Shown here piece by piece: positions 37,736 to 54,875 of a stretch of DNA of 64,000 bases. Each line of letters begins with the position of its first letter. The first letter of the stretch is position 1. This DNA comes from Paucidesulfovibrio gracilis DSM 16080 (GTDB lineage Bacteria; Desulfobacterota; Desulfovibrionia; Desulfovibrionales; Desulfovibrionaceae), in contig NZ_FUYC01000001.1 of the NCBI RefSeq assembly GCF_900167125.1, positions 62,001 to 126,000 on the forward strand, in the 5' to 3' direction. A model generated the notes under the pieces. It was not told where the DNA came from and ran no database searches. It saw only the letters and a program-made list of their open reading frames with translations. The translations under genes and the position numbers were made by a program.

Positions 37736-38705
37736 AATCTCGATCCATTTCCCACAAAGAATCGGGAAAGTCCCATATAGGTACGAACGTCTGAGCATCT
37801 TCACCATCTTGCTCAAAAACTATGGGACCATCAGGAGATTGCAAATCTAGATTAACTGAAGTCACATATTTCTCCAGCCACCAAAAATACATGGAATTTG
37901 AAAAGGTCCTGAAACTGGAATTTTTAATCAGGTCATCAAATTCGAACCCAATGAATTCTTCAACGAACCATCTGAACCTATCAATGTCCTTGTGCAGATG
38001 GTAATAATCGTCGTTTTTCTTCCCTTGCTTGTTGAACGGACGAAATGAGACAGCCTGATCTTTCTTGGTTGCATTATCAAAGAAGACACATCGTCCTCCT
38101 TTGGTCCATTGAGCATGGCTGGAGCAATCACTTGACCACGCATGCAATCCTTGGAGTACGTCTGCGCTACCGATCCGAAACGCATGGACTCGGACACCTG
38201 CATCATAGAGTTGTTTTACAGCATTCCTGAAATTCTTCATCCCGATAGCATTTGAGCCAATGGCGATCAGTGGATACTTCTCTCTCTGGTCGATAATTCT
38301 GCTTAGTTCATCGTCGCCTAAGGAGTGCAGTACAGGAACAGGGTTAAGTCCCATGTCTTCCAGTATCTTCTGGTTATCCCAATTCTTGCTGGCGAAGTTG
38401 TCCTTTTCTGCTTCATTGAAATCTTCATCGTAGTTGAAGTAGCAGTAGAACTTGTCGCCGTGTTCTTTCAGGAACGCACCATAGTCATATACGGTATGCG
38501 TCACCTTTCCAGGGTTCTGGTTTTTGGACCAGACACCACTGTCCAGAATAACCTTGTCGATGTGCTGTGGGTAATCCTTCAGAATCTTGAACGTCTGGTT
38601 ATCGTCCAGGCCAAATGAACGGAGCAGATTGACTTTTATTTCTGGTGCGAACTCATGGATAAGTTCGAACGTATAGTAGCTGAGGGAGGATTGAAAAATT
38701 TTCAT
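37731..38705 (-). CDS. TGT/DpdA-like transglycosylase-fold protein
   Basis: 324 residues. The pattern resembles phage and DpdA-type relatives of tRNA-guanine transglycosylase: an early Asp in ILDSGVWSK, NYDEDF, PVLHSLGDDE, PLIAIGSNAIGMKNF, then VRVHAFRIGSADVLQ and the Ser-rich SSDCSSHAQW that replaces SVDSxSW. Family enzymes swap guanine for 7-deazaguanine in tRNA or DNA. Whether base exchange is kept is open, since no preQ0 genes are seen here. The ATG overlaps the upstream gene's stop (ATGA), so the two are coupled. Confidence 0.65.
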   Translation of the reverse strand: MKIFQSSLSYYTFELIHEFAPEIKVNLLRSFGLDDNQTFKILKDYPQHIDKVILDSGVWSKNQNPGKVTHTVYDYGAFLKEHGDKFYCYFNYDEDFNEAEKDNFASKNWDNQKILEDMGLNPVPVLHSLGDDELSRIIDQREKYPLIAIGSNAIGMKNFRNAVKQLYDAGVRVHAFRIGSADVLQGLHAWSSDCSSHAQWTKGGRCVFFDNATKKDQAVSFRPFNKQGKKNDDYYHLHKDIDRFRWFVEEFIGFEFDDLIKNSSFRTFSNSMYFWWLEKYVTSVNLDLQSPDGPIVFEQDGEDAQTFVPIWDFPDSLWEMDRDW

Positions 38706-39730
38706 CGACCAAGACCTTCCTTGAAGCCAGCCCACTTCATTTTTGTGCTATCCGACCAAGCATGAAAAACTTCTTCCTGAAGGGAGACAAGGGTGGCGAA
38801 CATATGCGCCGTTCTCTCACCCCGATAACCATCAGGAATATAACCATCATCGAGAATCTCTTCCATCATGTCAGTAAGTTGCAAAACAGTTTCTTCCAAC
38901 TTGTTATAGGAAGGCGAAAGATCAGGGGAGGTAGATTTTTTCGTTGTCTTCTGAATTGAGCTAATAACTTCGCTATCAATCGTATTGTTTCTTTTTACTG
39001 CGGATGAAATTTTTTGAACGGCAGACTTCGGTAAGATTCCACCTTTTGTCTGTTGGGTGATCGTAGCTAATGTCTGTTCATCAACGATGACTTTTTTGTC
39101 AGCCAATAATTTTCGGTTTGCTGCTTTGGACACCAAGGATACGAATTCGGTTGTGTCATCATCGTTTTCCAGTTTGAACTCGTACCCAGATTCACTGAGC
39201 AGCTTCTGCAACGGATCAGGGTTCTCTATGCTCTCCAGAACGTTTGCAAGAGCTACCAGCCTCGTTATTCCCAGAAACGAATACGATTCAACATTGGGTA
39301 TTTTAGCAACTCGCATGAAGTCAAATCGTCTGGCCCTTTTCCCAATCGAGTCGAACAGCTTGTCAGAGATTTCCTCAAACGTTTCTCGTTTAACGGTTGC
39401 GTCAGTGATGTTTTTGTTATGGTGCTGGATATGCTCTTCGACCATGAGAAGCAACTTCCCATACTGAATCTTATATAACGCTTCTGAAGCCATTTTCAGG
39501 CCAGTAGAGACAGCTAGGTCACGACTGATCTCTGTGAGAATTTCAACAGCTTCATTGAGATTCATCTCAGCATGGGTCGTTCCATCTCTATAGTGAAAAG
39601 AGATGTGATGCAGTCGCTCGACGGTCTTCTTATTGAGCGGGCCAGCCTCAAGCTGAGTCCAGTGGTATTCCCGAATCTTATCCAGTGTCTCTTGGGTGAT
39701 GATTTCATGCTGTTCTGGCTGGTCTACCAT
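38702..39730 (-). CDS. hypothetical partner of the TGT-like protein
   Basis: 342 residues, soluble, mostly helical and charged, with no signal or membrane segment. I recognise no catalytic motif or known family. It is translated from a good site (GGAGG 7 bases before the ATG) and coupled by ATGA overlap to the TGT-like gene, so the two products probably act together. A leader hairpin lies 20-40 bases before the start. Confidence 0.75.
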   Translation of the reverse strand: MVDQPEQHEIITQETLDKIREYHWTQLEAGPLNKKTVERLHHISFHYRDGTTHAEMNLNEAVEILTEISRDLAVSTGLKMASEALYKIQYGKLLLMVEEHIQHHNKNITDATVKRETFEEISDKLFDSIGKRARRFDFMRVAKIPNVESYSFLGITRLVALANVLESIENPDPLQKLLSESGYEFKLENDDDTTEFVSLVSKAANRKLLADKKVIVDEQTLATITQQTKGGILPKSAVQKISSAVKRNNTIDSEVISSIQKTTKKSTSPDLSPSYNKLEETVLQLTDMMEEILDDGYIPDGYRGERTAHMFATLVSLQEEVFHAWSDSTKMKWAGFKEGLGR

Positions 39731-40520
39731 TTTCGTCCTCCGTCAGCTCAAAAGTCCAGCCGCCTGGACTTTCCGCCTGTGTATGAGCGTATCAGCTTGC
39801 AGAAGAAATTCGGAAAAGGTCTGCTTGTGGGTTCACTGTGGGTTGCTCATACTTCATGGGTATTCTTCATCATACATCTCAAAAATAAAAAAAGTGTCAC
39901 AACTACATAAAATACAAGAAGAATTTAAACAGCAACAGCAGCCATGTCAAGAAATAGTATCGCAAAAAGGACGCCATTTTTCAGGTGGTCCATTTTCTTC
40001 ATGGCTGAAAAAATATCGGGGTAAGAATGGGTGCAAGATCAAGGGTGGACTACCTCATGGGGTTATTGTTCATGCGATGCGTCAATGACACGCCAACGTC
40101 CGTCTTTGAACCAGTCACTGTTGTTCATTCAGGCAGTTTTGAAATAACCGTCTGGCAATTTTTTGATGGGGTCCATCTTATTTGGCTGGTTACACACTCA
40201 TGTGGATGTCTGCTTCAGGGTCGATCACGACAAAAAAGAAGGTGGAGTCACAATGGATGTTGCTGTGACTGCCATCATATTCTCATGAATCCTGGACCTT
40301 GATCGATTTGTTGAGTCCTCCCCCTTGCCAACCGGGATCGAGTGGTTATTGTCTCAGATGCAATTTAACCACGAAAACGGACATCAATTTTCGCACAAAA
40401 TGATCAAGGCAGCTTCATATATGCATGACGGACCTTCTGGGGTTCTGACTTCGTTTGCTCATATTAGGGCAGCCGAATTTCTCCTGTTCGACCAAACTGG
40501 CGAATTAGGAGGATTTTATC
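39731..40520. other. long noncoding region with leader hairpin
   Basis: 790 bases between divergent genes. A perfect stem AAAGTCCAG/CTGGACTTT (39751-39772, four-base loop) lies in the leader of the minus-strand hypothetical gene. A frame at 40325-40579 has no ribosome site and overlaps the radical SAM gene, so it is not called. The rest may hold promoters or an RNA gene; I cannot identify one. Confidence 0.5.
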
Positions 40521-41480
40521 ATGCGTTTAATGAATCCGCTTCTTGCAACTCGCAAGAAGGCTATTTATCGGACTGTTAAGTTTGATAAGAAGGAACTTTG
40601 CAGTCACTCTTTAGATATCGGTTTGATTTGCGATCATGGATGTCTATATTGTTCCACCCCCACCATCGCATCCGCTCGGACCAATCCCGTTTTTAAAGAA
40701 AACGGAACCACCGCTCAGAAGGCGCACAACGCGCAGCTTGCTTGTATAGACCTTGGAACGCCGGAACGTGTCGCTGCTGACGCAAAGCAGTTGACCGCAT
40801 CCGATGTTGTGATGATGTGTACCAAGGTTGACCCGTTTAGCCCTGCTGTGCAGCAGACTAACCTGTTCCGTGATTGCCTGTATGAGTTGCTGACCAACAA
40901 CCCTCATTGTCAGGTCAGGGTCCTTTCAAAGAACGCGGGTATTGTTGATGTACTCAAGGACTTCACCGAGTACGCTGACCGTATCCACTTCTCGCTGAGT
41001 CTAACGGCCCCGACCAGTCAGCAGGACTTCATTGACATCGTTGAACCCAACACCTCCAGTATCACAGAGCGTATTGATGCGCTTAAGGAGGCACATGGTC
41101 TGGGATTCAGGATGTATGGCATGGTCTGTCCCTGCATTCCTGGTATTCTGACTGAGTATCATCAGGTCGAGTCTGTGTTTAAGGAAGTCCTTCAGTTCAA
41201 CCCCGAAACTATCTGGGTCGAGCCTGTGAACAGTCGTGGACAGGGATTCAACAACATGGTTGCGGCACTGGATGAAGCCGGTAAGCACGAATGGGCTAGC
41301 TCCATCAAGGCGATCAAGAATAAGGACTCCCATGATGAGTATGTCGCTGGTCTCATCAACACCGTGGCTCTGGTGAGCAAGAATCTGGCTTTGGACGTTC
41401 CGATCCGTTTCCTTTCGTACAATCGTAAGGATGCTATCAGCGCAAAGCTGATTGACGATTCACACGTAATTTGGCTGTAG
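40521..41480 (+). CDS. radical SAM protein (SPL-like)
   Basis: 319 residues. The [4Fe-4S] motif is C37-x3-C41-x2-C44 (ICDHGCLYC). The rest follows the spore photoproduct lyase-like group (Rv2578c type): MMCTKVDPFSPAVQQTN, VRVLSKNAGI, HFSLSLT, a degenerate EP motif (IVEPNTSS), and CPCIPGI. Family members start radical chemistry with S-adenosylmethionine; the substrate is unknown, nucleic acid being one option. Good GGAGG at 8 bases before the ATG. It faces away from the TGT-like pair across a long noncoding region. Confidence 0.88.
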   Translation: MRLMNPLLATRKKAIYRTVKFDKKELCSHSLDIGLICDHGCLYCSTPTIASARTNPVFKENGTTAQKAHNAQLACIDLGTPERVAADAKQLTASDVVMMCTKVDPFSPAVQQTNLFRDCLYELLTNNPHCQVRVLSKNAGIVDVLKDFTEYADRIHFSLSLTAPTSQQDFIDIVEPNTSSITERIDALKEAHGLGFRMYGMVCPCIPGILTEYHQVESVFKEVLQFNPETIWVEPVNSRGQGFNNMVAALDEAGKHEWASSIKAIKNKDSHDEYVAGLINTVALVSKNLALDVPIRFLSYNRKDAISAKLIDDSHVIWL

Positions 41481-41647
41481 GAAAATGAATCAGGAGCACG
41501 AATAGGCTCCAGAACCATTAAGATTCGCTAGTTTAGGCGGGGTTGTTCGGTCCATGACCAAGCAATCCCGTCATTTTTATTTCTCTGGATTGACAATCAG
41601 CAGGCGGGGATATTGGGCAGTGAAACGTACATTCCAAATTAACTCGG

Positions 41648-41695
41648 CAAAAAATAGGACAGGAGCCACAGTAGGTCAGTACTGCGGCTCCTATT
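41648..41695 (-). terminator. intrinsic terminator
   Basis: Minus strand: AGGAGCCGCAGT pairs with ACTGTGGCTCCT (one G-T) and TATTTTTT follows. Ends the small HTH/AbrB-like gene's transcript. Confidence 0.82.
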
Positions 41696-41698
41696 TCG

Positions 41699-42103
41699 TT
41701 AAGCTTCACCGTCCGATTCAGGTGCTTCCTCTTCATCGTCCGGGCCAGCGGCAGTGACGGGCGAAAGGATGATCCTGTTGTCCTCATCCACTTCGATGGT
41801 GAACTCGCTGTTGATCTGGAAGTCTCCTTCAATGGCTTCCAGTTTCTTGAGAGTGATCTTGATGCCATGCTTGGTGACACGAACTCGACTGTTGCTTCGT
41901 TCATACAGGCCGGGAAGAGTTCTCAGTTGATTGTCCTCCACAGACAACCGCATCAAGTGCGTCCTGAGACTCTGAAGCGATGCCAGTCCCAGCTTCTTCT
42001 TCGCTGTCTGGGCATCGGCTCCTTCTTCGCACAATTGACGGAGCAAAGGAGCATCGTATTTGCTCTCGACTATTCGCCTCTTGGATTCATTCTTCTTTGC
42101 CAT
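41699..42103 (-). CDS. small HTH/AbrB-like regulator candidate
   Basis: 134 residues: a basic start, a helix-turn-helix-like part (residues 17-55, LLRQLCEEGADAQTAKKKLG), then a stretch (VTKHGIKITLKKLEAI ... IEVDEDNRIILSP) with the spacing of AbrB/SpoVT swapped-hairpin domains, and an acidic tail. Such proteins often repress their own gene. AGGAGG stands before the ATG. A palindrome (TTCGGTTGACCGAA at 42361) in its upstream region is a possible operator. Family assignment is by pattern only. Confidence 0.65.
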   Translation of the reverse strand: MAKKNESKRRIVESKYDAPLLRQLCEEGADAQTAKKKLGLASLQSLRTHLMRLSVEDNQLRTLPGLYERSNSRVRVTKHGIKITLKKLEAIEGDFQINSEFTIEVDEDNRIILSPVTAAGPDDEEEAPESDGEA

Positions 42104-42493
42104 TTTTCCTCCTATGTATTTGTTTTTATTGGATATCTATATATCAACTTTGAAACAGACATAGGTGGGGCCAGTGCTTAAAGTGACTGGTTTTGGAAGC
42201 TTCCAAATTTCGCTCCTCCTGCCCGTTTTGGGGGTTGGAGCAGGGTTGGTCAGGATTTTTGTTTGGATTTGTCCTTGAGGGTGTTTTGCGCGAATTTTGG
42301 GTGGGGGGTGGGGCTGGATGGGCAGAAAAATATGACGGGGAAGTGGAGGGGCTGTTGGATTTCGGTTGACCGAAGTTTTGATCTATCCAGATGCTTTGTG
42401 ATGCGATAACGGCGTGTTTGCTTGCGCTGGTGAAGCACATCTGCCGTTCAAAAATAGTAGAGACAGAAGGCGGGATATTTCACCCGCCTTTTA
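42104..42493. other. control region with palindromes
   Basis: 390 bases without a gene. TTTGGAAGCTTCCAAA is a perfect 16-base palindrome at 42192-42207; CCAGT...ACTGG flanks 42173-42189; TTCGGTTGACCGAA is at 42361-42374; a hairpin GGCGGG/CCCGCC (42469-42488) with T run lies just past the next gene's stop. G-rich sequence at 42225-42320 shows no open frame with a ribosome site. Confidence 0.6.
42361..42374. promoter_or_regulatory. candidate operator, copy 1
   Basis: TTCGGT-TG-ACCGAA inverted repeat. The same 14 bases with GGAT before them recur at 43415. The core GGTTGACC is the complement of GGTCAACC found in the att arms. Confidence 0.5.
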
Positions 42494-42748
42494 TTAGGCT
42501 AGAATGTCTCTGATTTTGTTCGGTTGGCAAAGACTTACTGAATTCAACAAGTCTTCAGGTTTGAGTCCGCAAAATGCAATGTCATTGCCATCAGCATCCT
42601 TGATGGAAACTGTGGCAAGATAAGCACCATCTTCTTCATTTTTTTCTAAGCCGAAATGTATTGAACCGTTTCCAGCGTTCAAATCGGTTGTATCATAAAA
42701 GTATACGATATCCTCAAACACTACCTTTGCAACAACTGATGCCTCCAT
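42494..42748 (-). CDS. hypothetical protein, 84 aa (island)
   Basis: Small acidic protein (MEASVVAKVVFEDIVYFYDT...), soluble, with no motif I recognise. It is well supported by AAAAGGAG at 8 bases before the ATG and by a hairpin right after its stop. Its downstream sequence (TTTTTGAACGGCAGATG) is shared with the next minus-strand gene. Phage or satellite accessory genes of this size are common. Confidence 0.65.
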   Translation of the reverse strand: MEASVVAKVVFEDIVYFYDTTDLNAGNGSIHFGLEKNEEDGAYLATVSIKDADGNDIAFCGLKPEDLLNSVSLCQPNKIRDILA

Positions 42749-42927
42749 AAGATACTCCTTTTATATCGATATATCTATTCGAGTAATTTCATAATGTAAT
42801 TAGTAGGAGAAAAGAATAAATACTCTTATGAAGTGCATCTGCCGTTCAAAAAATAGAAAGGACTTCTCTCGAAACAAAATTATCTCAAAAGAAGTCTGAT
42901 CAGATTTATTATGGGTTATAATGAAAA

Positions 42928-43305
42928 TTATTCGTCTTCTGGTAGACAAAACGTCAAACAGGCTTTCTCTTTGTCATCAGTACAAAGTAATCCTAGTATT
43001 TTTACTTTCTCAAGTCGTCCTGGTCCCATCAGATACAGCACATCAAACGCTACTCTGGTTCCATCCCATCGAACAGAAGCGGCTGCTTTGAACATCATTA
43101 TCGTGTCATGGAGCCTACCCGTGGTTGATTGCCCTTCCCCTACGAGCTTTTCTGGTGGCTCAATGTAATGGTGAAAGAGATTGCTTGAGACAACGGCAGG
43201 TATCTTCAGTCCGCTTTCTTCTTCAGAGATGGGAATCAAAACACCATCGGCTATTGCCTGCGTTCTGGTATACGCGTACACAAGATCAAAGTCGTCGAAA
43301 TTCAT
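42928..43305 (-). CDS. DUF6573-family protein
   Basis: 125 residues. The start (LVYAYTRTQAIADGVLIPIS) and the following SGLKIPAVVSSNLFHHYIEPP match the DUF6573 pattern found mainly on plasmids and integrative elements; function unknown. GGAGG lies before the ATG. Divergent from the large ATPase gene, with the TTCGGTTGACCGAA palindrome between them. GACTTC/GAAGTC (42848-42890) followed by T-rich sequence is a likely terminator. Confidence 0.82.
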   Translation of the reverse strand: MNFDDFDLVYAYTRTQAIADGVLIPISEEESGLKIPAVVSSNLFHHYIEPPEKLVGEGQSTTGRLHDTIMMFKAAASVRWDGTRVAFDVLYLMGPGRLEKVKILGLLCTDDKEKACLTFCLPEDE

Positions 43306-43414
43306 GGATACTTCCTCCAGATTAAAATTGGTTGAAATCTGAAGGTTATCCTCGGCTTGAAGATGTGGTCACGGGCGAATTGCCAGTCCCGGTCCAGTGC
43401 TGAGTGTGACGGAT

Positions 43415-43428
43415 TTCGGTTGACCGAA
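43415..43428. promoter_or_regulatory. candidate operator, copy 2
   Basis: TTCGGTTGACCGAA, preceded by GGAT as in copy 1 at 42361. Lies 43 bases before the large ATPase gene and 110 before the divergent DUF6573 gene, so it could control both. Confidence 0.5.
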
Positions 43429-43470
43429 TATTTGTTCAATTTGATGTAATAAAGTCGTTCCCCAATACCG

Positions 43471-46400
43471 ATGGTTCCAGACATGCTAGATCAGTCCAGT
43501 GTTGTTAAAAATGATGTTCTTTCCTCCGTATCAGATTGGTATGAATGGTTATCTGGTGAGGAGCAGAAAACAGTAAACGCATACCGTACAAAGCCGGAGC
43601 TGTTCATAGGTCATTTCCGTAGAGAAAGAGACACGACTGCTGAGTACAAAGGACGAGAAGTACTGGAGTTGCTTCAAAATGCTGCCGACGCAGCAAAAAA
43701 AATAGGACAACAAGGGCAAGTCCTTATCGAGTTAAGTCCTGCTGGATTGATCGTAGCCAATAGTGGTGCTGCATTTTCTACAGGTGGTGTTCAATCATTA
43801 CAGACTCCAGATTTTAGTCCGAAATTTAACGAAGGCGTTTATATTGGCAATAAAGGACTTGGCTTTCGCGCTGTCCTTAACTGGAGCGATTGGCCAGTGA
43901 TCTTAAGTCAGTCGTTAGCACTTACTTATTGCGAACAATATTTGACCAGAAAGACAGAGCAGTTGTGCCAAGCGAGTCCTGAGTTAAACTCCTTGGTGCA
44001 GGATGAGAGTCAAAGGCTCAACGGCAGTGTCTCTCCCGGGCTGCCTTTTCCAGCTTTTTCCGAGAACGGAGATTTGTCAGAATATATGACTGAGGCATCT
44101 CAAAAAGCTGTGTACCAAAGGTGTCAAGAACTGCATTTAGATGAGAAGTACACGACAGTAATTGGTATGCCTTTCAAGTCTGAGGACTTGTACGAAGTTG
44201 CCAAATTGCAAATCCAGACATTGCGTCCAGAGATTCTCCTATTCGTTCATCATCTAGATAAAATTGCATTTAGGTTGCACGACGAGGATGAATACAACTG
44301 GTCCCGTATTAAAGATGATGATTCCCAAATGATGGTGATGAAAAATGGTGCCCCAATCGGAATATGGAGGGTCTTTCACTATGAAGGGATCGTTCCGAAA
44401 GAAGAAGTAGATGATAGTCAGCAAGGCCAAGTACAGTTTGAACTTATTGTAGCTGTCCCTGAAGTGCAGGATTGTGGGGAACTTGTTGCATCACCTCTTT
44501 TCTCTCATTTCCCGACGAATATTTTGATGCCGATTCCGGTAGTCTGTCACGCCTCGCTAGAGCTTGACCAAAGTAGAAATCACATTCTGGACAAAAACAG
44601 TAATCGGTATGTCTTGCATGAGCTGGCTGGTTTTGTTGCCACAATTGCTGAACAAAGGGCTGTTCAATATCCTGCCGGGTGCAATGCTGGATTTCGTTTA
44701 TTAATCCCTCTTCGAAGTTCGTACCCTCACGATCTGGAACAAATGGTATTTCCAGAGGCTTTACTAAATGCTGCTCGGACAAAATGCATAGTTCCAACAT
44801 TGGGTGGTAAGGCTGTGCGCTACGACCAAGCTTACTCTGTTGATGGGGCAGATGAGTCCTGGCTCCCCGCAGAAGTTTTCGAAGATGTAACTCCTATAGC
44901 CGATGTGTCTGAGAGGGACTTTTTCAAAAAGCTCGGAGTGAAAGCTTTGAGTGATAGTGACTTTCGACAACGGTTGCTTGCTATTGAAAATCTTTCTTTA
45001 GGCGAAAGAGTACGATTGATTGTTGGGTTGATTGAGAACTGTGTTTCTTCAAGCGTCCATAGTTCAGCCCTTTTATTAAGTTCAAGTGCGGAGTCTGTGC
45101 CTGATAACGCAACCGTCCTGATTGCACCAAAAGAATCAAAGCTGCCCTCAACCCCTTCATGGGTATCATTGCGATATTTGGACTCGGATTTAGCGCGTAT
45201 GCTGAGCGATAGATTGCGCGTGTCTGACTCTCGTGATTTGCAACGAAAGATGAGGTCTTTCGGGCTACAAGAGTACTCGTTAGCGAATCTAATTCAACGT
45301 GTGATTGCAAATTCAAACCAATACGCGAAGGAAGAAGGCGACTCCTCAGAAATGGTTCAAAAGGAGCTAATTCAATACCTTTTCAAATTGTTTGAGTTGG
45401 AGGACTCCACCAAGAAACGTCCTGCATTTCCTGAAAGGGCTTCCTTGTCATTAATCAATATCAATGGAGACCGTTGCCCCGTTAATACGCTTTATATGGG
45501 GACGGGCTACGGTAGTGATGGGAACATCGTTCAAAGCTTGTATGGGGCATGTCATCCTGAACAACTTGTCGCAGCCCCTCATGCGTTGGGGCTGAAGAAC
45601 TGTGAAAAGGATGAGTTAATCTCATTTATGCAGTGGATTGGTGTCTCCAGGTGGCCCAGAGAAACCTCCACAAATTGCAGCGACACAGAGTATAAGGAGT
45701 ATCTGCTAGGAACCATAAGCTATCCAGTTAACTTCAATGAATATCATTTTAACAGTAGAGAAGAGGCTTCCCGGAATGCTCGTTTCTTTGTTCGGGACAT
45801 GAAGAACATTGATGGACTGGAAGCAATAATTGAGAGCGCACCGACAGCAGCAATTGCTGCTTGGTTAGCGCTGGATGAAAAGATGCCTCAACTTCTTAGG
45901 GCCGGGGAGTGGAATGCTCGTTTTAGCGCGAAGAAAGGGAATGATCGTAACTGGAGGAGTTACAGGGGGAGATTGCCAAGTTTTATCAAATGGAAGCTTG
46001 AAGGTTCTGAATGGTTAATTGCTAAAGATGGAAGCAAAATGCGTCCTAAGGATTGTGTTTTAGGTACGCGATTAAATGAAGCACTTTTTCTAAGACCAGT
46101 ATATCCAGAAAGTGATGTGCTAGAATTGTATGGCCTTGATATTAATGATCTGATTGAAGGTTGGCGGCGTGGGGGTGTCGCTTCCAGCATCGCGGAGCTT
46201 GAAAAAAATCGTCTGTATGAGTTGTTGCTTGAGTGGCCTGAACGCCACCCTGATGGAAAGTCTGCAAGAGCATTATACAAAGCTGTTATTGACGCGATAG
46301 ACACAGCTTTTGGAGAAGATAGAGGAGCGCGTAGCCTGTTTTTTGAGTCTGGCAAGATGTGGAGCAAGTGTGGTGAGTATTACCCTATTGGTGAGATGCG

Positions 46401-47682
46401 CCATGATGACTTGCAAGGATTCCCACAAGCTCTGTTGGATGAGTTTACATTAGTTGATCTGCCTCACCGAGTTGGCTCTGATAAAGTGAGGCGAACATTT
46501 GGTGTAAACTCGCTTGATAAAGAGGACATTGAGCAGCGTGTGAACAGCTATGATTTGGCTGGAAATTTTGATGTAGAATTTCAAAGTGTAAAGCCATTTT
46601 GGTACTGTCTCCGTGTTGCACAATCCAGCCAAGTTCAGAATTTGGAGTCTCTGAAGCGGTTGAAATTAAGAGTGTGTTCCAAGATAAGCACGACTCTGCT
46701 TTATCAGGGGAAAACCATTAACTACTCTGTTCCAGTGTGGGGCTGGCTTATTGATAATGGTGTTTTGTATGTGCGGAGCGACCCTGCAAAATCCGTCAAT
46801 TCAAAGTCTACTCTATTAGCTGAAGCTATTGGCGCAGCTATCGCTTCACTGTTTAGGATTGCGAGTGGCGCGGAGTTTGTGACGATGTTCTTAACTGATC
46901 CAGAAGACCGGGAGGCTCTTCTTGAGCAAAAGGGAATCGAAACGACTACTGAAGAGATGGAACGGATACTTAAAGATTTTGGAACTCCCGTCATTGAATC
47001 TGTACCAGTACTTCCCCAAGGGGTGCCAGTTCCCGAACTGGAAAAACGAACAGAGGGTAAAAGTGATTCTCCATCAACCTCAGAACCCGTTGACAGTACG
47101 CCTTCACCAGCTCCAGACAAGGTAGAGGAAGCTGATTTGAAAGTGGAAGGGAAGGACTGCGTTGATCCTAAAGAAAGAACCAAGCGTAATATAACGGTTA
47201 AGAGAGTTGTGAATAAGCAGGGAGGCCATACTCGGCGGGTGACAGACTATAATTTTGTTGAACGAAAAGCCCTAGAGGTTGAGGCGTTCTTTGATAGGTT
47301 CCCTGTACTCGTTGGACATATTACCGGTTATGAAGCTCCTGGCTGCGATATTCTCAGTTTTTCATCTGCGGAACATAGAGATGAATTTCTTTCAGGAGAA
47401 AATAGAGATTCTGACCGGGTTGAACGATTTATTGAAGTTAAAGGACGTCGAGACAAAGGAGCTGCGATTGAATTGCGTGGCAACGAAATGAATGCTGCAC
47501 ATGAGAGACAAGAAAAATACTACATCTATCGAATGAGTAAAAACGGTGAAGGTTCGTTTGAATTAAGCATATTAAATAATCCGATGGCGCATAAGAATGC
47601 GTTAGAGCAATCCATTTATGTAGACATGGATCGTGCAGAGTCTCTGGAGAGATTTAATGTCTCAGGTGGTTCAGCAGAATAA
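43471..47682 (+). CDS. HSP90-type ATPase with DUF3883 nuclease-like domain
   Basis: 1403 residues, probable cargo defence protein. The N-terminus is a sacsin/HSP90-type (GHKL) ATPase: ELLQNAADA at 67-75 (metal-binding Asn), IVANSG in place of the usual DNG box near 94-99, and IGNKGLGFRAVL at 125-136. A long middle has no known domain. An acidic linker (about 1195-1235) leads to a DUF3883 domain with a PD-(D/E)xK-like Asp1293, Glu1322 and Lys1324 (CDILSF; FIEVKG). ATP-controlled nucleases of this shape occur in anti-phage loci. Start is not fixed by a ribosome site; 43483 is possible. Confidence 0.82.
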   Translation: MVPDMLDQSSVVKNDVLSSVSDWYEWLSGEEQKTVNAYRTKPELFIGHFRRERDTTAEYKGREVLELLQNAADAAKKIGQQGQVLIELSPAGLIVANSGAAFSTGGVQSLQTPDFSPKFNEGVYIGNKGLGFRAVLNWSDWPVILSQSLALTYCEQYLTRKTEQLCQASPELNSLVQDESQRLNGSVSPGLPFPAFSENGDLSEYMTEASQKAVYQRCQELHLDEKYTTVIGMPFKSEDLYEVAKLQIQTLRPEILLFVHHLDKIAFRLHDEDEYNWSRIKDDDSQMMVMKNGAPIGIWRVFHYEGIVPKEEVDDSQQGQVQFELIVAVPEVQDCGELVASPLFSHFPTNILMPIPVVCHASLELDQSRNHILDKNSNRYVLHELAGFVATIAEQRAVQYPAGCNAGFRLLIPLRSSYPHDLEQMVFPEALLNAARTKCIVPTLGGKAVRYDQAYSVDGADESWLPAEVFEDVTPIADVSERDFFKKLGVKALSDSDFRQRLLAIENLSLGERVRLIVGLIENCVSSSVHSSALLLSSSAESVPDNATVLIAPKESKLPSTPSWVSLRYLDSDLARMLSDRLRVSDSRDLQRKMRSFGLQEYSLANLIQRVIANSNQYAKEEGDSSEMVQKELIQYLFKLFELEDSTKKRPAFPERASLSLININGDRCPVNTLYMGTGYGSDGNIVQSLYGACHPEQLVAAPHALGLKNCEKDELISFMQWIGVSRWPRETSTNCSDTEYKEYLLGTISYPVNFNEYHFNSREEASRNARFFVRDMKNIDGLEAIIESAPTAAIAAWLALDEKMPQLLRAGEWNARFSAKKGNDRNWRSYRGRLPSFIKWKLEGSEWLIAKDGSKMRPKDCVLGTRLNEALFLRPVYPESDVLELYGLDINDLIEGWRRGGVASSIAELEKNRLYELLLEWPERHPDGKSARALYKAVIDAIDTAFGEDRGARSLFFESGKMWSKCGEYYPIGEMRHDDLQGFPQALLDEFTLVDLPHRVGSDKVRRTFGVNSLDKEDIEQRVNSYDLAGNFDVEFQSVKPFWYCLRVAQSSQVQNLESLKRLKLRVCSKISTTLLYQGKTINYSVPVWGWLIDNGVLYVRSDPAKSVNSKSTLLAEAIGAAIASLFRIASGAEFVTMFLTDPEDREALLEQKGIETTTEEMERILKDFGTPVIESVPVLPQGVPVPELEKRTEGKSDSPSTSEPVDSTPSPAPDKVEEADLKVEGKDCVDPKERTKRNITVKRVVNKQGGHTRRVTDYNFVERKALEVEAFFDRFPVLVGHITGYEAPGCDILSFSSAEHRDEFLSGENRDSDRVERFIEVKGRRDKGAAIELRGNEMNAAHERQEKYYIYRMSKNGEGSFELSILNNPMAHKNALEQSIYVDMDRAESLERFNVSGGSAE

Positions 47683-47718
47683 TGCGCTAACGTGGTAAGT
47701 TGGGTGAGGTGTGTGCAA

Positions 47719-49128
47719 GTGGATGATGACTATAAGCGCATAGCTGGCAATTTAGATAATCGCCAAAATCTTTGCTGCGAGAATCCTGAAGTCAAAGAAG
47801 TTTTGGACCTTGGCACGGGGAAAGTTCTTCTTGCTCAGGATGCCATTGGGAGTGACGTAAATGGCGCAATGAGATTGCGTAGGAAACTGGCAGGGCAGCA
47901 TAAAATCACCGACGATGATCAGTTAGAGGTGATTTGTCCCTATTGCCACAAACCTTTGCGTTTAAACTGTCTTATGAGCGGACAGCGTTTCTACTTTGCA
48001 CATATCAAACGCGAAAATAACTGCCCACAACTAGAGAAAAAGAACTGGACCAAAGAACGCATTGAAGCAGCTAAGTATAATGGTCAAAAGGAGTCTCTGC
48101 CTCACAAACAGATGAAAGGAGACCTGTGCAGGGTGTTGGAGGCTGATTCTCGTTTTTCAGATATTGCAGTTGAAGAGGTTGTAAAAGGAGAGGACCCAAG
48201 TACGTGGCGCAAGCCCGATGTCAGGGCTTTGTACAATGGTGCTTTACGAGTTGTTTTTGAAATACAGTTATCGACCACTTTTCTGGAAGTGGTGTTGGCT
48301 AGGAGAGATTTCTATCGAGAAAAAGGCGAATTGCTTGTTTGGGTTTTTAAAAAATTCTCACTCCGCGATGCTCGTATGATGGAATTTGACACCTTTCACG
48401 CAAACAACATGAACGCGATAGTGTTAGATCAGAAAGCGCAGGAATGGTGCCAACAGCACGGAAAGCTGGGGCTGAAGTGTGTTTGGGTTGAGCCTAAACA
48501 TGAAGATGGTCAGCTTTCTCATTCGGAATATTCCGATATTATTGACTTTGAAGATTTGAGCAAAAGCGTTGAAGATCAGCAGATTTATTGGTTCGATTAC
48601 AATGGGAAAAGAGCAATTGTTGATGCCGAGTTGGAGAGGTGGAGGGAAGTAGAGCGAGTCCGAAATATACGGGAGAGCTTCTTCGATGCCTTCGATCCAA
48701 CTCTTGATGCTGATGACCAATCAAAATACGCGAACAAGTTCTTTCCTGAAATGAATTTGCGTTCAAATGATATTAAGTGGCGATTAAGTGGCTACTTGCG
48801 GATGATGAACGCGGCGAGGACTGGCGATCCGACTAAGAGAGGCGGCGGTTGGGGATTTTCAAACTTCAAGAATATATACGACAACGTGTATAAGTCCCAT
48901 ACTTCACTATACTTCTTGTTTTGCTGTGCAATGAAAGCATACTCAAGGGACGAAACTAGCACATCAATCACTGACCGGAAGGAAGAAGCCTGGAGGTCTG
49001 TTTGTGCTGATGGCGAGAATTCAAAATTTCACCATGATTCTATTTACTCTGAGCTGACAGAGGTTTTATTTCCGGAGGTACATGAAGTGTATAAGAAAAT
49101 TTTGTCAAAATCTAAGAAGGGTAGTTGA
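47719..49128 (+). CDS. CoiA-like zinc/nuclease protein
   Basis: About 469 residues. A CPYCHKPLRLNC zinc-ribbon near residue 73 followed by FYFAHIKRENNC resembles the CoiA N-terminus; next comes a restriction-endonuclease-like core with HKQMK, Asp167 in KPDVRA and Glu181-x-Gln183 in VFEIQLS. The C-terminal 250 residues are unknown. It resembles the DUF6035/CoiA group. GTG at 47719 is chosen for GAGGTG 7 bases upstream. It starts 36 bases after the HSP90-type ATPase gene on the same strand, so they form a likely two-gene system. Confidence 0.75.
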   Translation: MDDDYKRIAGNLDNRQNLCCENPEVKEVLDLGTGKVLLAQDAIGSDVNGAMRLRRKLAGQHKITDDDQLEVICPYCHKPLRLNCLMSGQRFYFAHIKRENNCPQLEKKNWTKERIEAAKYNGQKESLPHKQMKGDLCRVLEADSRFSDIAVEEVVKGEDPSTWRKPDVRALYNGALRVVFEIQLSTTFLEVVLARRDFYREKGELLVWVFKKFSLRDARMMEFDTFHANNMNAIVLDQKAQEWCQQHGKLGLKCVWVEPKHEDGQLSHSEYSDIIDFEDLSKSVEDQQIYWFDYNGKRAIVDAELERWREVERVRNIRESFFDAFDPTLDADDQSKYANKFFPEMNLRSNDIKWRLSGYLRMMNAARTGDPTKRGGGWGFSNFKNIYDNVYKSHTSLYFLFCCAMKAYSRDETSTSITDRKEEAWRSVCADGENSKFHHDSIYSELTEVLFPEVHEVYKKILSKSKKGS

Positions 49129-49135
49129 TTCTTAT

Positions 49136-50539
49136 TCACTTTCTACGTTTACGTCCTCTTTTGCGTTTCAGTATTAGGTCACTGATAAATTCTTTTTCAA
49201 TAAATGCATCAACAAGTTCTTCCACAGAGTTGTCGAGTCCTAATATTTCAACTGAGTATTGAAATCTTGTTTTGATGTCTTTGAGAACTCGTGGGGTTAA
49301 TTTAAAGTCTTTAGGGGATTTTGACTTGAGAATTGCTTTAGACAAGGCTCCAGTATCTTTGTTTGAAGGGAAGTGAGTCCAGTTATCGTATTCTTCCCAA
49401 TCCCAAGTACCCCACTGCTTCATTCCGTCGATAAGATATGAGCGGTGGTCCTTGGGGAGCCAGTAGCTTTGATCTGAGAGCATCCACACCAAGTAATCGA
49501 TTGTGTCATAAAACTTGACTTCTGGCCCCATTAGGTGCCCTTGGACAAAAAAGCACGCTATGGTTGCAGGTCCATAAAAGCCAAAGTTGTCATCGCGGAG
49601 TGCAATAAATTCATCGCAGCGAGGGCTGGTACCGTCTGTAGTTAAGGCGGAGCCGTATTTTGAATTGGTTTGCCTCCTCTCATTATTCTTCTGTTGTGAC
49701 CAACGTAAAGCAGCATCAAATTGTTCTTCAAATAGTCCACTGCATCCACGTATTGTTGTTTGAGGGGCATAGGTGGCTAGGTAATGCAGATTGTTGCCAC
49801 ACCTGTCTTCTAGCCCTATAGATGAGTTAATAAAATCATGTACAATGTCTGGGTGAGTTATTTGTGTGATTTGCTCGCGTTCAGCCCGTTCCATCCACTC
49901 GGTTTGTAGTACAGCCCAAGCAATCCTCTCACCCTTTTGAGCAGTACTTGGCCCATTTTCGGGTAGTGGAAATCCCCATCTCCCCCACCCCATGGCATCT
50001 TGAAATGTCCCTTCAAGCTCATTCGAGCCGGTATATTCGATTGCCTTGTGCCACCAGTCGTCAGTCACGACAGGGGGATTGTATCCTAAGCTTAGCAAGC
50101 GATCTCTGGCTACAACTAAAGAAGACCCTTGTGGCTTTACAACCTTCAGAATTTCTTGAACATTTGATTGCACACCGGCAGATGCTTGCAACGCATATTT
50201 GTCCGCGAGAGAAGGAGAGTAATTGATGATCTCTTTTGCTGAGACATCAAGCCAAACGGGTATGATGACGGGATCGTTTGACGAGTTCTGCCGCTGAACG
50301 AGTCCATCGAGTTCCCATTCGGGCCATTTTTTCGCGAGGAAGGATGGGCTTAATACAACGATTCCAAAGCGGGATTTGGATAATCCTAGATCGATTGATC
50401 TTCTGAGGCTGTCACCGGGTTTTAAGGAAAACTCGTCATACCAAACAGCTACATTCTCTTTTTCAAGAGCTTCTGCAAGTCCGCGGACATACTTGTCTTT
50501 GTCCTCTGATGCGTGACTAATAAAAATATCGTGTAGCAT
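49136..50539 (-). CDS. TIR-domain protein
   Basis: 467 residues. Residues 1-135 are a TIR domain (DIFISHASEDK, WYDEFSLKPGDSLRRSID, VVLSPSFLAKKWPEWEL) with Glu76 at the NADase catalytic position. The rest is a helical domain of unknown family and a lysine/arginine-rich end (KRKRGRKRRK). Bacterial TIR proteins with intact Glu deplete NAD or make signal nucleotides after phage sensing. Convergent with the CoiA-like gene with 7 bases between, so it may be an independent defence gene. The remainder may sense or be the effector target. Confidence 0.85.
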   Translation of the reverse strand: MLHDIFISHASEDKDKYVRGLAEALEKENVAVWYDEFSLKPGDSLRRSIDLGLSKSRFGIVVLSPSFLAKKWPEWELDGLVQRQNSSNDPVIIPVWLDVSAKEIINYSPSLADKYALQASAGVQSNVQEILKVVKPQGSSLVVARDRLLSLGYNPPVVTDDWWHKAIEYTGSNELEGTFQDAMGWGRWGFPLPENGPSTAQKGERIAWAVLQTEWMERAEREQITQITHPDIVHDFINSSIGLEDRCGNNLHYLATYAPQTTIRGCSGLFEEQFDAALRWSQQKNNERRQTNSKYGSALTTDGTSPRCDEFIALRDDNFGFYGPATIACFFVQGHLMGPEVKFYDTIDYLVWMLSDQSYWLPKDHRSYLIDGMKQWGTWDWEEYDNWTHFPSNKDTGALSKAILKSKSPKDFKLTPRVLKDIKTRFQYSVEILGLDNSVEELVDAFIEKEFISDLILKRKRGRKRRK

Positions 50540-50634
50540 AGACCTATTTGTTCGTAGAGTGTTGAAACAAGCTATCCATAATCAAATCACATCTAAATGT
50601 GAATAGAATGTCCGTTCTCAGTGGCACCAAAATT

Positions 50635-50656
50635 TGGTCAACCAAATTGGTCAACC
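50635..50656 (+). repeat. paired arm motif left of att copy 2
   Basis: TGGTCAACC at 50635-50643 and 50648-50656, about 100 bases before the core. A related pair follows at 50856-50864 (TGGTGAACC) and 50868-50876. Confidence 0.7.
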
Positions 50657-50750
50657 GGAGCCTTTAACACGCCTCCAACATCACTGATTTTCTGTTGACC
50701 GGGAAAAAATAAATTCAATAATCCTGGAGCTTGGAGACGAGTCTCCTTGC

Positions 50751-50795
50751 ATGGCATTCAAGAGGTCGTGGGTTCAATTCCCTCCAGCTCCACCA
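50751..50795 (+). repeat. att copy 2 (tRNA-Ala 3' end)
   Basis: 45 bases matching 33104-33148 with one change (GGTTCAATTCC for GGTTCGATTCC). No 5' tRNA half is present, so it is not a gene. Marks the right end of the main element. Confidence 0.9.
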
Positions 50796-50815
50796 AAAAT
50801 TTCCCAAAGAAGAAG

Positions 50816-50850
50816 GGCGGTTAGACGAAGAGTCTGACCGCCTTTTTTTC
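50816..50850 (+). terminator. intrinsic terminator after att copy 2
   Basis: GGCGGTTAGAC pairs with GTCTGACCGCC (one mismatch), followed by seven T residues. It differs from the tRNA-Ala terminator that follows the other copies. Confidence 0.85.
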
Positions 50851-51041
50851 GTTTGTGGTGAACCGGTTGGTCAACCAATGAGGGAGAATTTGGGAGGATG
50901 AGGTGTTGACTGGGCTGGGAAAAGGTGTGGGATAGCTGGGGGATGTGGTGTGGTAGGCGCTTGAATGTTGGTCAAGAGGCTGGTACGATATAATCGATAT
51001 TGGATAAAGAGTGTGGTACATTTTATTGTAAGGAGATATGC

Positions 51042-51881
51042 TTGTTTAATCTCATGATGTTTAACGTGGACTGGGAATCTGGCCGAGTGCAAGTCCCCTT
51101 AGGAAGAGTTTTTGAATATACAGAAGATTCTCTTGTTAATATGTATAAAGAAAATGGAGCTCTACAGCTTGATCTCTTGAAGTCTTTACCATGCTTATTC
51201 TGTGAAGAAGGAACACGACAAGAAAGTGCTTATGTCGGTAGAATTGTACAGGCAAGGCTCGCAGGGGACGCCTTGGCTCTTGAGGTTGCCTTCGATAGAG
51301 ATGTTCCTGTGCTGCAAAATGAGATGCTATACGAAAACCGTATTGACTTGGACATGCCTCATGACTTTGAATTCTCTCGGAATCATTGGGCAGTCAAGAA
51401 TGTAGACCTGTACCGTTTTCTGCTTAGAAATGTTCGCCCTCGACGCCAAAGACCAACAGTGTTTGAGCTTCCTGAGCACGAAAGGATTGATGCCTCACTT
51501 TTGTCCGCTATGATGCCCTTCGATGCTGGGTTCAGGGAAGTGCACGAGGTTATCAATCAAGCTTCGGAAGATGCAGGTCTGAGGTGTAGGCGGGTTGATG
51601 ATATATGGGAGGCTCCATCAATCATACAAGATGTCGTTTCGCTTATTGATCGTTCTAGAGTTGTTGTTTGCGACTGCACAGGAAAGAATCCAAATGTGTT
51701 TTATGAAGTAGGTATTGCTCATACCCTTGGTCGGGATGTTGTTTTGGTGACACAGAACGAATACGATATTCCTTTTGATTTGAGGCATATTCGCTATATT
51801 AAATACCTCAATAACGGAGAGGGACTTTTAAAACTCAGACATAAATTAGCTAATAGGATTCGAACCATAGTTGGACATTGA
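51042..51881 (+). CDS. TIR/deoxyribosyltransferase-like protein
   Basis: About 279 residues. The C-terminal half has the pattern AMMPFDAGFREVHEVI, RVDDIW, RVVVCDCTGKNPNVFYEVG, AHTLGRDVVLVTQ, PFDLRHIRYIKY, typical of a Rossmann-like domain related to nucleoside deoxyribosyltransferases and TIR-like proteins, common in defence gene sets. The N-terminal 140 residues are unknown. Start: GGAG lies 6 bases before a TTG at 51042; the ATG at 51054 is 18 bases away. It lies in a mini-cassette between att copies 2 and 3. Confidence 0.7.
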   Translation: MFNLMMFNVDWESGRVQVPLGRVFEYTEDSLVNMYKENGALQLDLLKSLPCLFCEEGTRQESAYVGRIVQARLAGDALALEVAFDRDVPVLQNEMLYENRIDLDMPHDFEFSRNHWAVKNVDLYRFLLRNVRPRRQRPTVFELPEHERIDASLLSAMMPFDAGFREVHEVINQASEDAGLRCRRVDDIWEAPSIIQDVVSLIDRSRVVVCDCTGKNPNVFYEVGIAHTLGRDVVLVTQNEYDIPFDLRHIRYIKYLNNGEGLLKLRHKLANRIRTIVGH

Positions 51882-51993
51882 GATGAGTGAATAATTGAAA
51901 CATTGTTACTGATTGAGAGCTGAATGAACATTATAAAGGCTTCTAGTATGGTTCTTTGAGACATATTTATAATGCATAGATAAGAGGTGGAAG

Positions 51994-52539
51994 ATGGAAT
52001 TCAAGCTTTCGGACTTGATTCGAGAAATTCGGATATCTATTGACTATTTAATACACCTTCCAAATACATTGAATCAGTTGATTTCAGATTTTCAGTGTGA
52101 AAGCCATTCACGTAAAGAAAGAGTAAGAAAGCAAAAGATAATTGTTGAATTAAGAGAAGTCGGAAAGTCTTTGATACAAGTTTATATAGCAAAAAATGAT
52201 ATATACAGTAGTTTTGAAGATTGGAGGTATAGTGCTTCGGTTGAAGACATTGAAGTAGTAAAAGAACAGATTTCTTACATTATTGTTTGTTTAGACGACA
52301 TAGAGAGCGCACTGGTTGAGACATCTTTCAATACTGTTGAGTCAGTAGTAAAGGCCTTGAATCATATAAAAGTCTGTAAGAATGCATATGGTCGTTTACT
52401 AAAGATCCCCAACTCAGAGTATTTGGATGGCTCTGTAGCAGATGTGGCCTATCAGCGCGTTAAAGAACTTAGTGACGCTGGTGTGACTTTTGTTAAAGAA
52501 CTAGATTCTCAAAGAAAATTGTTAGATTACACATATTAG
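51994..52539 (+). CDS. hypothetical helical protein, 181 aa
   Basis: Very A+T-rich gene for a soluble, mostly helical protein (many Ile, Val, Glu, Lys), no motif recognised. AGAGGTGG precedes the ATG. It follows the TIR/deoxyribosyltransferase-like gene by 112 bases in the same mini-cassette, so the two may act as a sensor-effector pair; that is inference from position. Confidence 0.65.
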   Translation: MEFKLSDLIREIRISIDYLIHLPNTLNQLISDFQCESHSRKERVRKQKIIVELREVGKSLIQVYIAKNDIYSSFEDWRYSASVEDIEVVKEQISYIIVCLDDIESALVETSFNTVESVVKALNHIKVCKNAYGRLLKIPNSEYLDGSVADVAYQRVKELSDAGVTFVKELDSQRKLLDYTY

Positions 52540-52605
52540 CTGGAATCACTACGTTCAAATGTATCTGACGATATTGGGGTTGCAGCGCAAAGCGTCACAC
52601 CTTTT

Positions 52606-52626
52606 TGGTCAACCATTTGGAGAACC
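52606..52626 (+). repeat. paired arm motif left of att copy 3
   Basis: TGGTCAACC (52606-52614) and a decayed TGGAGAACC (52618-52626). A pair on the other side is TGGTGAACC 52830-52838 and TGGTCAACC 52842-52850. Confidence 0.65.
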
Positions 52627-52721
52627 AAGTGCCTCTAACACCTATCCAACATCCCTGATTTTCTGTTGACTGCAAAACAAAAAGTCGAACAATTTCAACG
52701 AATAAAGTAAACAATCCTGGC

Positions 52722-52766
52722 ATGGCATTCAAGAGGTCGTGGGTTCAATTCCCTCCAGCTCCACCA
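52722..52766 (+). repeat. att copy 3 (tRNA-Ala 3' end)
   Basis: 45 bases with the same single change as copy 2. The homology continues through the tRNA terminator copy (52785-52819). Confidence 0.9.
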
Positions 52767-52855
52767 CATATTTTTCTTAAGTAAAAGGACCGTTTAGCTT
52801 GATAGGCTATGCGGTCCTTTTTCTATTTGTGGTGAACCAATTGGTCAACCGGCTG

Positions 52856-53209
52856 TGGGTCTACACCAAAAACGGGGGCAGTCACGAAAGCGAACTGTTC
52901 CGAGCATGTCCGGATTTGGACCCAGTTCAAGAGGAGGAGGGTGTTAAGGTCGCCAAAGATGAAAAGCCAACAATAAAACGGACAAAGACTCAGGCCGAGT
53001 CAAGCGATATTCAATTTGATTTTCGATATGATATTTTGAAAAGAGATAATTTCAAATGTGTTATCTGTGGCAGAAGTCCAGCGACAGATTTCAACTGCAA
53101 GTTGCACATTGATTATATCAAACCTTGGTCCAAGGGTGGTTTAACGGTTCCTGAGAATTTGCAGACCCTTTGTGATGCTTGCAATCTCGGCAAAGGCGCG
53201 AAGGTGTAG
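52856..53209 (+). pseudogene. HNH endonuclease remnant a
   Basis: Encodes the C-terminal part of an HNH nuclease: RYDILKRDNFKCVICG, then LHIDYIKPWSKGG, NLQTLCDACNLGKG. Both CxxC zinc pairs are kept, but the catalytic His of the usual DHI is Tyr (IDYI). The frame has no start of its own: it runs in from att-flanking sequence, so the 5' end is lost or borrowed. Related to remnant b at 53903. Confidence 0.65.
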
Positions 53210-53223
53210 TTTGGGGGAGCTGT

Positions 53224-53523
53224 TTAATCTTCTTCAATTATTCCGGCCCACAATTTCGATGTATGCATGACTCGCAGCACATCAACCACATCCTGTTGCA
53301 CCTGATAAACCAGAAAATAAGGAACGTGAGGGATGACCAACTCTCTAGTGCCTTTCAGCAGTCCTGCTCGACCTGCGTGGGAAAATGTGCGGAGCGTGCC
53401 AGTCGCCTTGTGGATTTTGGCAACCAGCATCTTGCCGATATCCGGTTCTCCCTGTTCTCGGAAGTAATCTATTAGGTCTGTCAGATCTGCATAAGCGGAC
53501 TCGGTCCAATTAATCGAGTTCAA
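53224..53523 (-). CDS. RelE/ParE-family toxin
   Basis: 99 residues with the ParE-type order: WTESAYADLTDLIDYF at the start, AGRAGLLKGTRELVIPHVPYFLVYQV in the middle and VLRVMHTS at the end. ParE toxins hit DNA gyrase; RelE ones cut mRNA on ribosomes; sequence favours ParE. Its start overlaps the upstream ribbon-helix-helix gene by 14 bases, antitoxin first, the usual parDE order. Confidence 0.9.
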   Translation of the reverse strand: MNSINWTESAYADLTDLIDYFREQGEPDIGKMLVAKIHKATGTLRTFSHAGRAGLLKGTRELVIPHVPYFLVYQVQQDVVDVLRVMHTSKLWAGIIEED

Positions 53524-53752
53524 CGCCGAGTCCTTTCAGTTTGTCGGCGACTTCCTCATGGGAAAAGACTCGACCAGCTTCAACGTCATCAAGCCCTTTT
53601 TGGACTTCGGCAGAATACCAAGTCAGGTATTCCAAGTAATGATTCACTGCATTTTTAATCAAGCCGGACCGGGTTTGGCCTAACGCATGGACTGCCTCAT
53701 CCAACCGTTCCAGAGTGGCGGTATCAAATCGTGTGCTTACCATTGAGGGCAT
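53510..53752 (-). CDS. CopG/RHH antitoxin (ParD-like)
   Basis: 80 residues. The N-terminal ribbon-helix-helix (MVSTRFDTATLERLDEAV then GQTRSGLIKNAVNHYL) binds DNA as a dimer; the C-terminal tail should wrap the toxin. AGGAGG stands 7 bases before the ATG. Translationally coupled to the toxin gene and expected to repress the pair. Confidence 0.88.
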   Translation of the reverse strand: MPSMVSTRFDTATLERLDEAVHALGQTRSGLIKNAVNHYLEYLTWYSAEVQKGLDDVEAGRVFSHEEVADKLKGLGVELD

Positions 53753-53840
53753 ATTTGTTCCTCCTGTATGACATATCGTATGTCACTGTTGCGAGAATGT
53801 CCAGCGTGAGTCAAAGAGTCTTATTTGAACAGCGGAAAGC

Positions 53841-53901
53841 ATCAAATTTTGGTCAACCATTCGGTCAACCAAATATCTTTAACACGCCTCCAACATCACC
53901 G
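53841..53901 (+). repeat. arm-block relic joined to HNH remnant
   Basis: Matches 54867-54927 (block left of att copy 4), including TGGTCAACC at 53850 and CGGTCAACC at 53862, then breaks and continues directly into the HNH remnant. An att core once here has probably been deleted. Confidence 0.7.
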
Positions 53902-53902
53902 G

Positions 53903-54259
53903 GTCTACACCCAAAACGGGGGCAGTCACGAAAGCGAACTATTCCGAGCATGTCCGGATTTGGACCCAGTTCAAGAGGAAGAGGGTGTTAAGGTCGCCAA
54001 AGACGAGAAGTCAAGAAGGAGACGCATAAGGACTCAGGCCAAGTCAAGCGATATTCAATCGGATTTTCGATATGATATCTTGAAAAGAGATAATTTCAAG
54101 TGTGCAATCTGTGGAAGAAGCCCAGCAACAGATTTAAACTGTATAGTGCACACTGATCACATCAAGCCTTGGTCCAAGGGCGGGTTGACGGGGCTGAGAA
54201 TTTGCAGACCCTTTGTCAATGCTTACAATCTTGGAAAAGGGGCAAAAGTGGAGTTTTGA
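53903..54259 (+). pseudogene. HNH endonuclease remnant b
   Basis: Second copy of the HNH fragment at 52856. Here the catalytic His is kept (TDHIKPWSKGG), but one base is lost after the GG and one gained 20-odd bases later, which scrambles the intervening residues; the second CxxC is destroyed (Cys to Tyr). The two copies are thus broken in different places. Confidence 0.7.
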
Positions 54260-54345
54260 AATAATTTTGTACTAAACTTGATGGGGACTGAACGACTTGA
54301 CCATGATAGGAATTATTTTTTATTCTCTGTAGAAGGAGGCATGTC

Positions 54346-54854: not shown

Positions 54855-54875
54855 CTCAAACCAGCATCAAATTTT

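Follow-up and report, generated by a model that had tools for sequence, protein, structure and literature searches.

Genes 1 and 2 of the window (the whole 64,000-nucleotide stretch analysed here) are, with high probability, two self-sufficient nuclease-type defence genes that share the cargo slot of an integrative element, where cargo stacking most likely made them neighbours by accident. Computation showed the family membership and folds of the two genes, their conserved motifs and the cargo slot, and no conserved pairing between them was found.

An integrative element at tRNA-Ala and its cargo slot

Genes 1 and 2 and a TIR-domain gene occupy the cargo slot of an element integrated at a tRNA-Ala gene (33149-50795). 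The features of the element and its integration site are listed below; frequencies refer to the 348 genomes of the window's class.

33073-33148, forward strand: tRNA-Ala (GGC), integration site
33104-33148: left attachment repeat, identical to the 3' 45 bp of tRNA-Ala
34408-35448, reverse strand: tyrosine integrase of the element
36434-37483, reverse strand: replicase-family gene of the element (PF03090)
40521-41480, forward strand: radical-SAM backbone gene, 95% identical in the sister element L166
41699-42103, reverse strand: backbone gene B3, in 47/348 genomes
42928-43305, reverse strand: backbone gene B4 of the DUF6573 family, oriented away from the cargo, in 45/348 genomes
43331-43428, forward strand: conserved promoter-proximal block, 74-81% identity with two sister elements that have different genes downstream
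43415-43428: near-palindrome TTCGGTTGACCGAA in the promoter-proximal block
43471-47682, forward strand: gene 1, predicted TmtA/Tiamat-family sacsin-type GHKL ATPase with NOV_C (from the ORF, profiles, alignment and model)
47719-49128, forward strand: gene 2, predicted DUF7830 zinc ribbon plus DUF6035/CoiA-like PD-(D/E)XK nuclease-type protein, GTG start from homology
49136-50539, reverse strand: convergent TIR-domain gene, the third cargo gene, for a protein of 467 aa with its TIR domain at residues 3-129
50622-50801: right end, conserved among the elements, including a copy of the 45-bp attachment repeat (50751-50795)

A preliminary description of this DNA had reported a two-gene operon of defence type. 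Both ORFs were found intact and as described, and the TIR neighbour and the mobile element are consistent with a defence-type setting. The genome also carries dsrA, as a sulfate reducer should; together with the composition of the class, this suggests that the host belongs to the Desulfovibrionaceae. Copy numbers of B3 and B4 reached 12 per genome, which, together with their occurrence in 47 and 45 of the 348 genomes, indicates that the element family is widespread.

Downstream, the tRNA-Ala attachment region recurs in two further partial copies (52722-52826 and 55014-55035), suggesting that 50751-55035 contains remnants of further tandem insertions. Within these remnants are a TIR/deoxyribosyltransferase-like gene (51000-51881), two related HNH-type ORFs (52799-53209 and 53825-54259) and small ORFs resembling RelE-type toxins. 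The motif TTCGGTTGACCGAA had seven matches with up to two mismatches, compared to 0.53 expected; it was element-specific and was also present in several sister elements. The motif TGGTTGACC clustered at the element ends, with nine exact matches compared to 0.56 expected. The sites of the two motifs (42361-42374, 43415-43428, 33213-33233, 50636, 50869, 52607, 53851-53871 and 54876-54896) are possibly recognized by a regulator or a recombination protein.

Gene 1 strongly matches the Tiamat family

Gene 1 is a stop-free ORF of 1403 codons (43471-47682, forward strand), with the following predicted regions.

Residues about 39-484: ATPase module and transducer
Residues about 490-1170: long middle region
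Residues 1292-1358: C-terminal NOV_C/DUF3883 PD-(D/E)XK domain

The proposed two-gene system had earlier been matched to no named one. Gene 1, however, scored 1000 bits against the PADLOC TmtA model PDLC03964 (E 6e-301), with its best stretch at residues 21-1172, and eight more TmtA models matched at E < 0.01; on this strong match, the protein is assigned as a further member of the named Tiamat family. Tiamat (TmtA) was reportedly presented by Millman et al. in 2022 as an anti-phage system of one gene. A 2026 review (PMC12926258) counts it among the Millman 2022 systems whose mechanism is unknown. Genes of the gene-1 type occurred in defence and integrative islands, similar to the Pseudomonas GI hotspots in which Tiamat has been found (PMC12629846). 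Gene 1 also has the sacsin/Hsp90-like ATPase of Tiamat, but the best stretch of the match reaches only profile position 1141 of 1538, and the NOV_C domain of gene 1 lies beyond it.

The C-terminal domain was recognized by the Pfam NOV_C profile (PF13020, 37.9 bits, cut-off 22.1). The Pfam sacsin domain was sub-threshold, and the NCBIfam sacsin N-terminal ATP-binding-like domain (NF047352) was above its cut-off. DUF3883 was described in 2013 as a novel restriction-endonuclease domain (PMC3710099). Like other NOV_C/DUF3883 proteins, gene 1 ends in NOV_C with a D...ExK site, while its fusion partner is a sacsin-type ATPase rather than the SNF2 helicase of that study.

Homologues of gene 1 in several phyla showed 34-45% identity across about 1400 residues, far above chance, and the nearest relatives were only 45% identical. 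The GHKL motifs and the D...ExK site reported previously in the 1403-residue protein were all located: the helix motif ELLQNAADAA (E66-x3-N70-x2-D73), ANSG at residues 96-99, the glycine motif IGNKGLGF at residues 125-132 (I125-G-x-K-G-L-G-F), and the C-terminal D1293 with E1322-V-K1324. In an alignment of 17 proteins, the helix and glycine motifs were invariant (N70, G126, K128 and G129-G131 in 17/17), as was N97, and D1293 and the glutamate of ExK (E1322) were likewise kept in all 17. In GHKL enzymes such as Hsp90 and GyrB, a canonical Asp contacts adenine. This position was Asn (N97) in 17/17 gene-1-type proteins, so nucleotide use by gene 1 is likely but ATP use is not certain.

The AlphaFold model of gene 1 comprised residues 1-1200 and had a mean pLDDT of 83.8. 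Its best PDB match was sacsin SR1 (Z 13.2, rmsd 3.3, 184 residues), followed by SMCHD1, MORC2 and Hsp90, whose transducer domains were matched as well; the ATPase module filled this match list, and the middle region (about residues 490-1170) had no separate match in it. The ATPase module and transducer fold were thus common to gene 1 and human sacsin SR1, MORC2, SMCHD1 and Hsp90 (Z 10-13), although sequence identity to these proteins was only 9-19% and gene 1 has Asn for the adenine-binding Asp. The model supports an Hsp90/sacsin-type GHKL ATPase module at the N-terminus, in agreement with the earlier reading of a sacsin-like ATPase combined with DUF3883, for which NOV_C scored above its cut-off. 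Sequence searches identified no gene-1 relatives among solved structures and no match in phage records, and one distant relative was found in viral contigs.

Gene 2 is a predicted CoiA-like nuclease

The gene 2 frame is open from a GTG at 47692 and ends at 49128 on the forward strand. In a related genome, a homologue with 73% identity begins at the residue matching the GTG at 47719, and DNA identity to this homologue also begins there, so a start at 47692 was rejected in favour of 47719. The 47719 start gives a protein of 469 residues and a gap of 36 bases to gene 1, as had been proposed.

In this numbering, the zinc-ribbon ligands C73, C76, H95 and C102 and the site D167...E181-I-Q183 were invariant, and seven aligned gene-2-type proteins had in common C-x2-C...H...C and D...ExQ-x-S-T-T-F. 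The zinc ribbon and D...ExQ site of the preliminary description were therefore recovered, and the residues that it had singled out for substitution (N70 and E1322 of gene 1, E181 of gene 2) were correctly placed. Gene 2 matched the Pfam profiles DUF6035 (PF19500, 59.5 bits, cut-off 22.6) and DUF7830 (PF25169, 58.4 bits, cut-off 27.5). It scored just under the cut-off for CoiA_nuc (PF06054, 19.8 bits, cut-off 20.3), a profile to which its homologue L014 scored 35.2 bits. No PADLOC model matched gene 2, indicating that it is not close to any system modelled there.

The gene 2 model was built with three sequences only and was of low confidence overall (mean pLDDT 57, about 52-87 in the core). Its core at residues 124-287 had an alpha-beta-beta-beta-alpha-beta arrangement, the order of PD-(D/E)XK enzymes, with the following elements placed together with D167 and E181-I-Q183.

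Residues 127-142: helix
Residues 146-151: strand
Residues 168-172: strand
Residues 176-183: strand
Residues 189-201: helix
Residues 205-210: strand

Can2 was at the top of the VIA list (Z 10.3, rmsd 3.5, 131 residues), and the list otherwise consisted mostly of restriction-type nucleases and also included EndoMS and Card1. A PD-(D/E)XK nuclease fold is well supported by the model, and together with the DUF6035/DUF7830 profiles it bears out the earlier CoiA-like assignment. A CoiA-domain protein was recovered in an E. coli functional phage-defence selection (PMC9519451), and gene 2 is likewise a CoiA-type PD-(D/E)XK defence candidate.

Among solved structures, no gene-2 relatives were identified by sequence search, and a literature search for DUF6035 returned a single passing mention. 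Like gene 2, other DUF6035/CoiA-like proteins occurred in islands and plasmids. Phage records held one partial gene-2 match, and two relatives were identified in viral contigs. One DUF6035 protein (L183:5030-6403) lies in a Mu-like phage contig between the early and head genes, and is a candidate phage-borne exclusion gene.

Genes 1 and 2 are not a conserved pair

The preliminary description had joined the two genes into one defence system of two nucleases and suggested a search for their co-occurrence across genomes. A scan with one genome per species yielded 80 gene-1 loci covering 1.5 Mb. None of them contained a gene-2 relative, either by tblastn with gene 2 or by a six-frame search of the 1.5 Mb with an HMM of seven gene-2 homologues, which recovered all of the distant positive controls (L098, L099, L182 and L183). 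On this result, an unnamed conserved pair was rejected. Gene-2 relatives were found in only 2 of 18 genomes that carry gene-1 relatives and were searched whole, and both were outside the flanks examined around the gene-1 locus. Plasmid records matching gene 1 (25) and gene 2 (33) did not overlap, nor did the other carriers in the window's class (two for gene 1, both distant, and five for gene 2, among 348 genomes). No second instance of the pair was identified in any collection searched.

Five related genomes, plasmids and the Mu-like phage carried gene-2 relatives without gene 1 (73%, 50% and about 30% identity). The closest of them (73%) belongs to a genome without gene 1, and the others were alone or near R-M, MazEF, HipA or AAA/UvrD genes. 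The two genes are thus not regular neighbours, which argues against the pair and has no bearing on whether either gene is a defence gene alone.

The neighbours of gene-1 relatives were clade-specific. A RecB-like RNase H/helicase gene and DUF4357 were alongside in alphaproteobacteria; in gammaproteobacteria and other groups the neighbours were either type I R-M genes or genes for HerA and a kinase. As a genomic proxy for Tiamat acting as a single gene, the 80 loci had no gene-2 relative and their neighbours varied among clades, a pattern compatible with it. Because gene-1 relatives are often beside nuclease or restriction genes, they could conceivably depend to some degree on a nuclease nearby. 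Genes 1 and 2 also lie next to each other on one strand with 36 bp between them, an operon-like arrangement that we counted against their independence, and they may be co-transcribed over this gap.

Two of these settings were seen in more detail. In six alphaproteobacterial loci (L031, L034, L035, L036, L037 and L041, about 4400-14200), the Tiamat-type gene followed a gene for a RecB-like RNase H/helicase of about 1100 aa and one for a DUF4357 protein of 109 aa as a recurrent unit, and WYL and HEPN genes were often present in divergent orientation. The unit looks like a genuine conserved multi-gene context of Tiamat. In Rheinheimera, Shewanella and Alkalimonas (L021, L022 and L023, operons around 4000-17100), the Tiamat-type gene was within a type I restriction-modification operon, accompanied by genes of the AAA and PtuB-like kinds and by one for a large ankyrin protein.

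Sister elements exchange their cargo

Three sister elements were compared to the window. L166 was 93% identical over 40216-42897 and 97% identical over 50624-50796, with a single flagellin gene (1307 aa) between the conserved blocks. L167 was 81% identical over 42924-43409 and 93% identical over 50622-50801, and carried a single acyltransferase gene in between. L100 was 74% identical in the promoter block (43331-43428) and 72% identical in gene 2 from its start codon, and had a ParB-like gene of 295 codons where the window has gene 1. In L100, DNA identity broke off at the margin of the promoter block and resumed at the start codon of gene 2, and gene 2 was again the second gene of a two-gene operon, with the same intergenic distance of 36 bp. 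These exchanges indicate that genes 1 and 2 are exchange-slot cargo and move independently. No other evidence speaks as strongly against an obligate pair, or in favour of each gene being useful alone.

Enlarged flagellin genes were found in several sister elements (L166:12452-16375, L170:9951-11459, L179:3109-4977 and 5921-8065, L181:10009-11535, and L100:12556-14037), often about 1 kb from B4. Most were 471-728 aa, one was 1307 aa and one had a laminin-G insert. In six multi-copy genomes, the median flagellin open frame was 568 aa near B4 compared to 322 aa elsewhere. Oversized flagellins on a mobile element could reshape the flagellum, for instance as a defence against phages that bind it.

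A slot that also accepts non-defence genes (flagellin, acyltransferase), in an element that is multi-copy in related genomes, would suit genes 1 and 2 being factors for element maintenance or for competition with plasmids and rival elements rather than with phages. We consider this unlikely, as the gene 1 family is filed as anti-phage and a CoiA-domain protein came from a functional phage-defence selection (PMC9519451). A genuine, recently assembled two-part system, in which infection is sensed by the Tiamat ATPase, which permits its own nuclease as well as the CoiA-like one to act, would account for two intact nuclease-type genes on one strand with a 36-bp gap and a promoter block in common, and a young association would be invisible among gene-1 relatives that are at most 45% identical. 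Nevertheless, the pair was seen nowhere else in the collections searched and the 73% gene-2 relative was found without gene 1, which makes such a system decidedly improbable. It is very improbable that gene 2 is an exchangeable effector behind differing first genes acting as sensor or regulator (the Tiamat ATPase here, the ParB-like gene in L100): the promoter block and gene 2 were constant while the first gene was swapped at the block edge and the gene-2 start, with 36 bp between the genes in both elements, but there are only two instances, the remaining gene-2 relatives are alone or beside unrelated genes, and recombination between conserved flanks swaps genes without a functional link. We likewise give little credence to a modular sensor-effector operon, with a conserved promoter, a DUF6035 nuclease and swappable first genes that control it; if true, Tiamat proteins would be able to serve as trans-acting switches for a second nuclease.

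Proposed mechanism and implications

For two self-sufficient genes, we infer nuclease activity, ATP gating, a trigger and phage protection along the following lines. The sacsin/MORC-like GHKL ATPase of gene 1 most likely dimerises or clamps upon ATP binding, as in the MORC/SMCHD1/Hsp90 class. The trigger may be a phage component or phage DNA sensed via the long middle region, and clamping would let the C-terminal NOV_C PD-(D/E)XK domain cut nucleic acid (DNA or RNA). In gene 2, the zinc ribbon would bind DNA and the D...ExQ PD-(D/E)XK core would cut it. Neither gene would rely on the other.

The tempting reading of a new two-gene system was corrected here by a natural comparison, in which sister elements gain and lose each gene separately. 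Our analysis adds a sulfate-reducer protein with a clear nuclease-type C-terminus to the Tiamat family. This C-terminus points toward nucleic-acid cleavage as the Tiamat output, and the residues for testing it are named. In the window's class, the analysis also reveals a multi-copy family of integrative elements with a swappable cargo slot.
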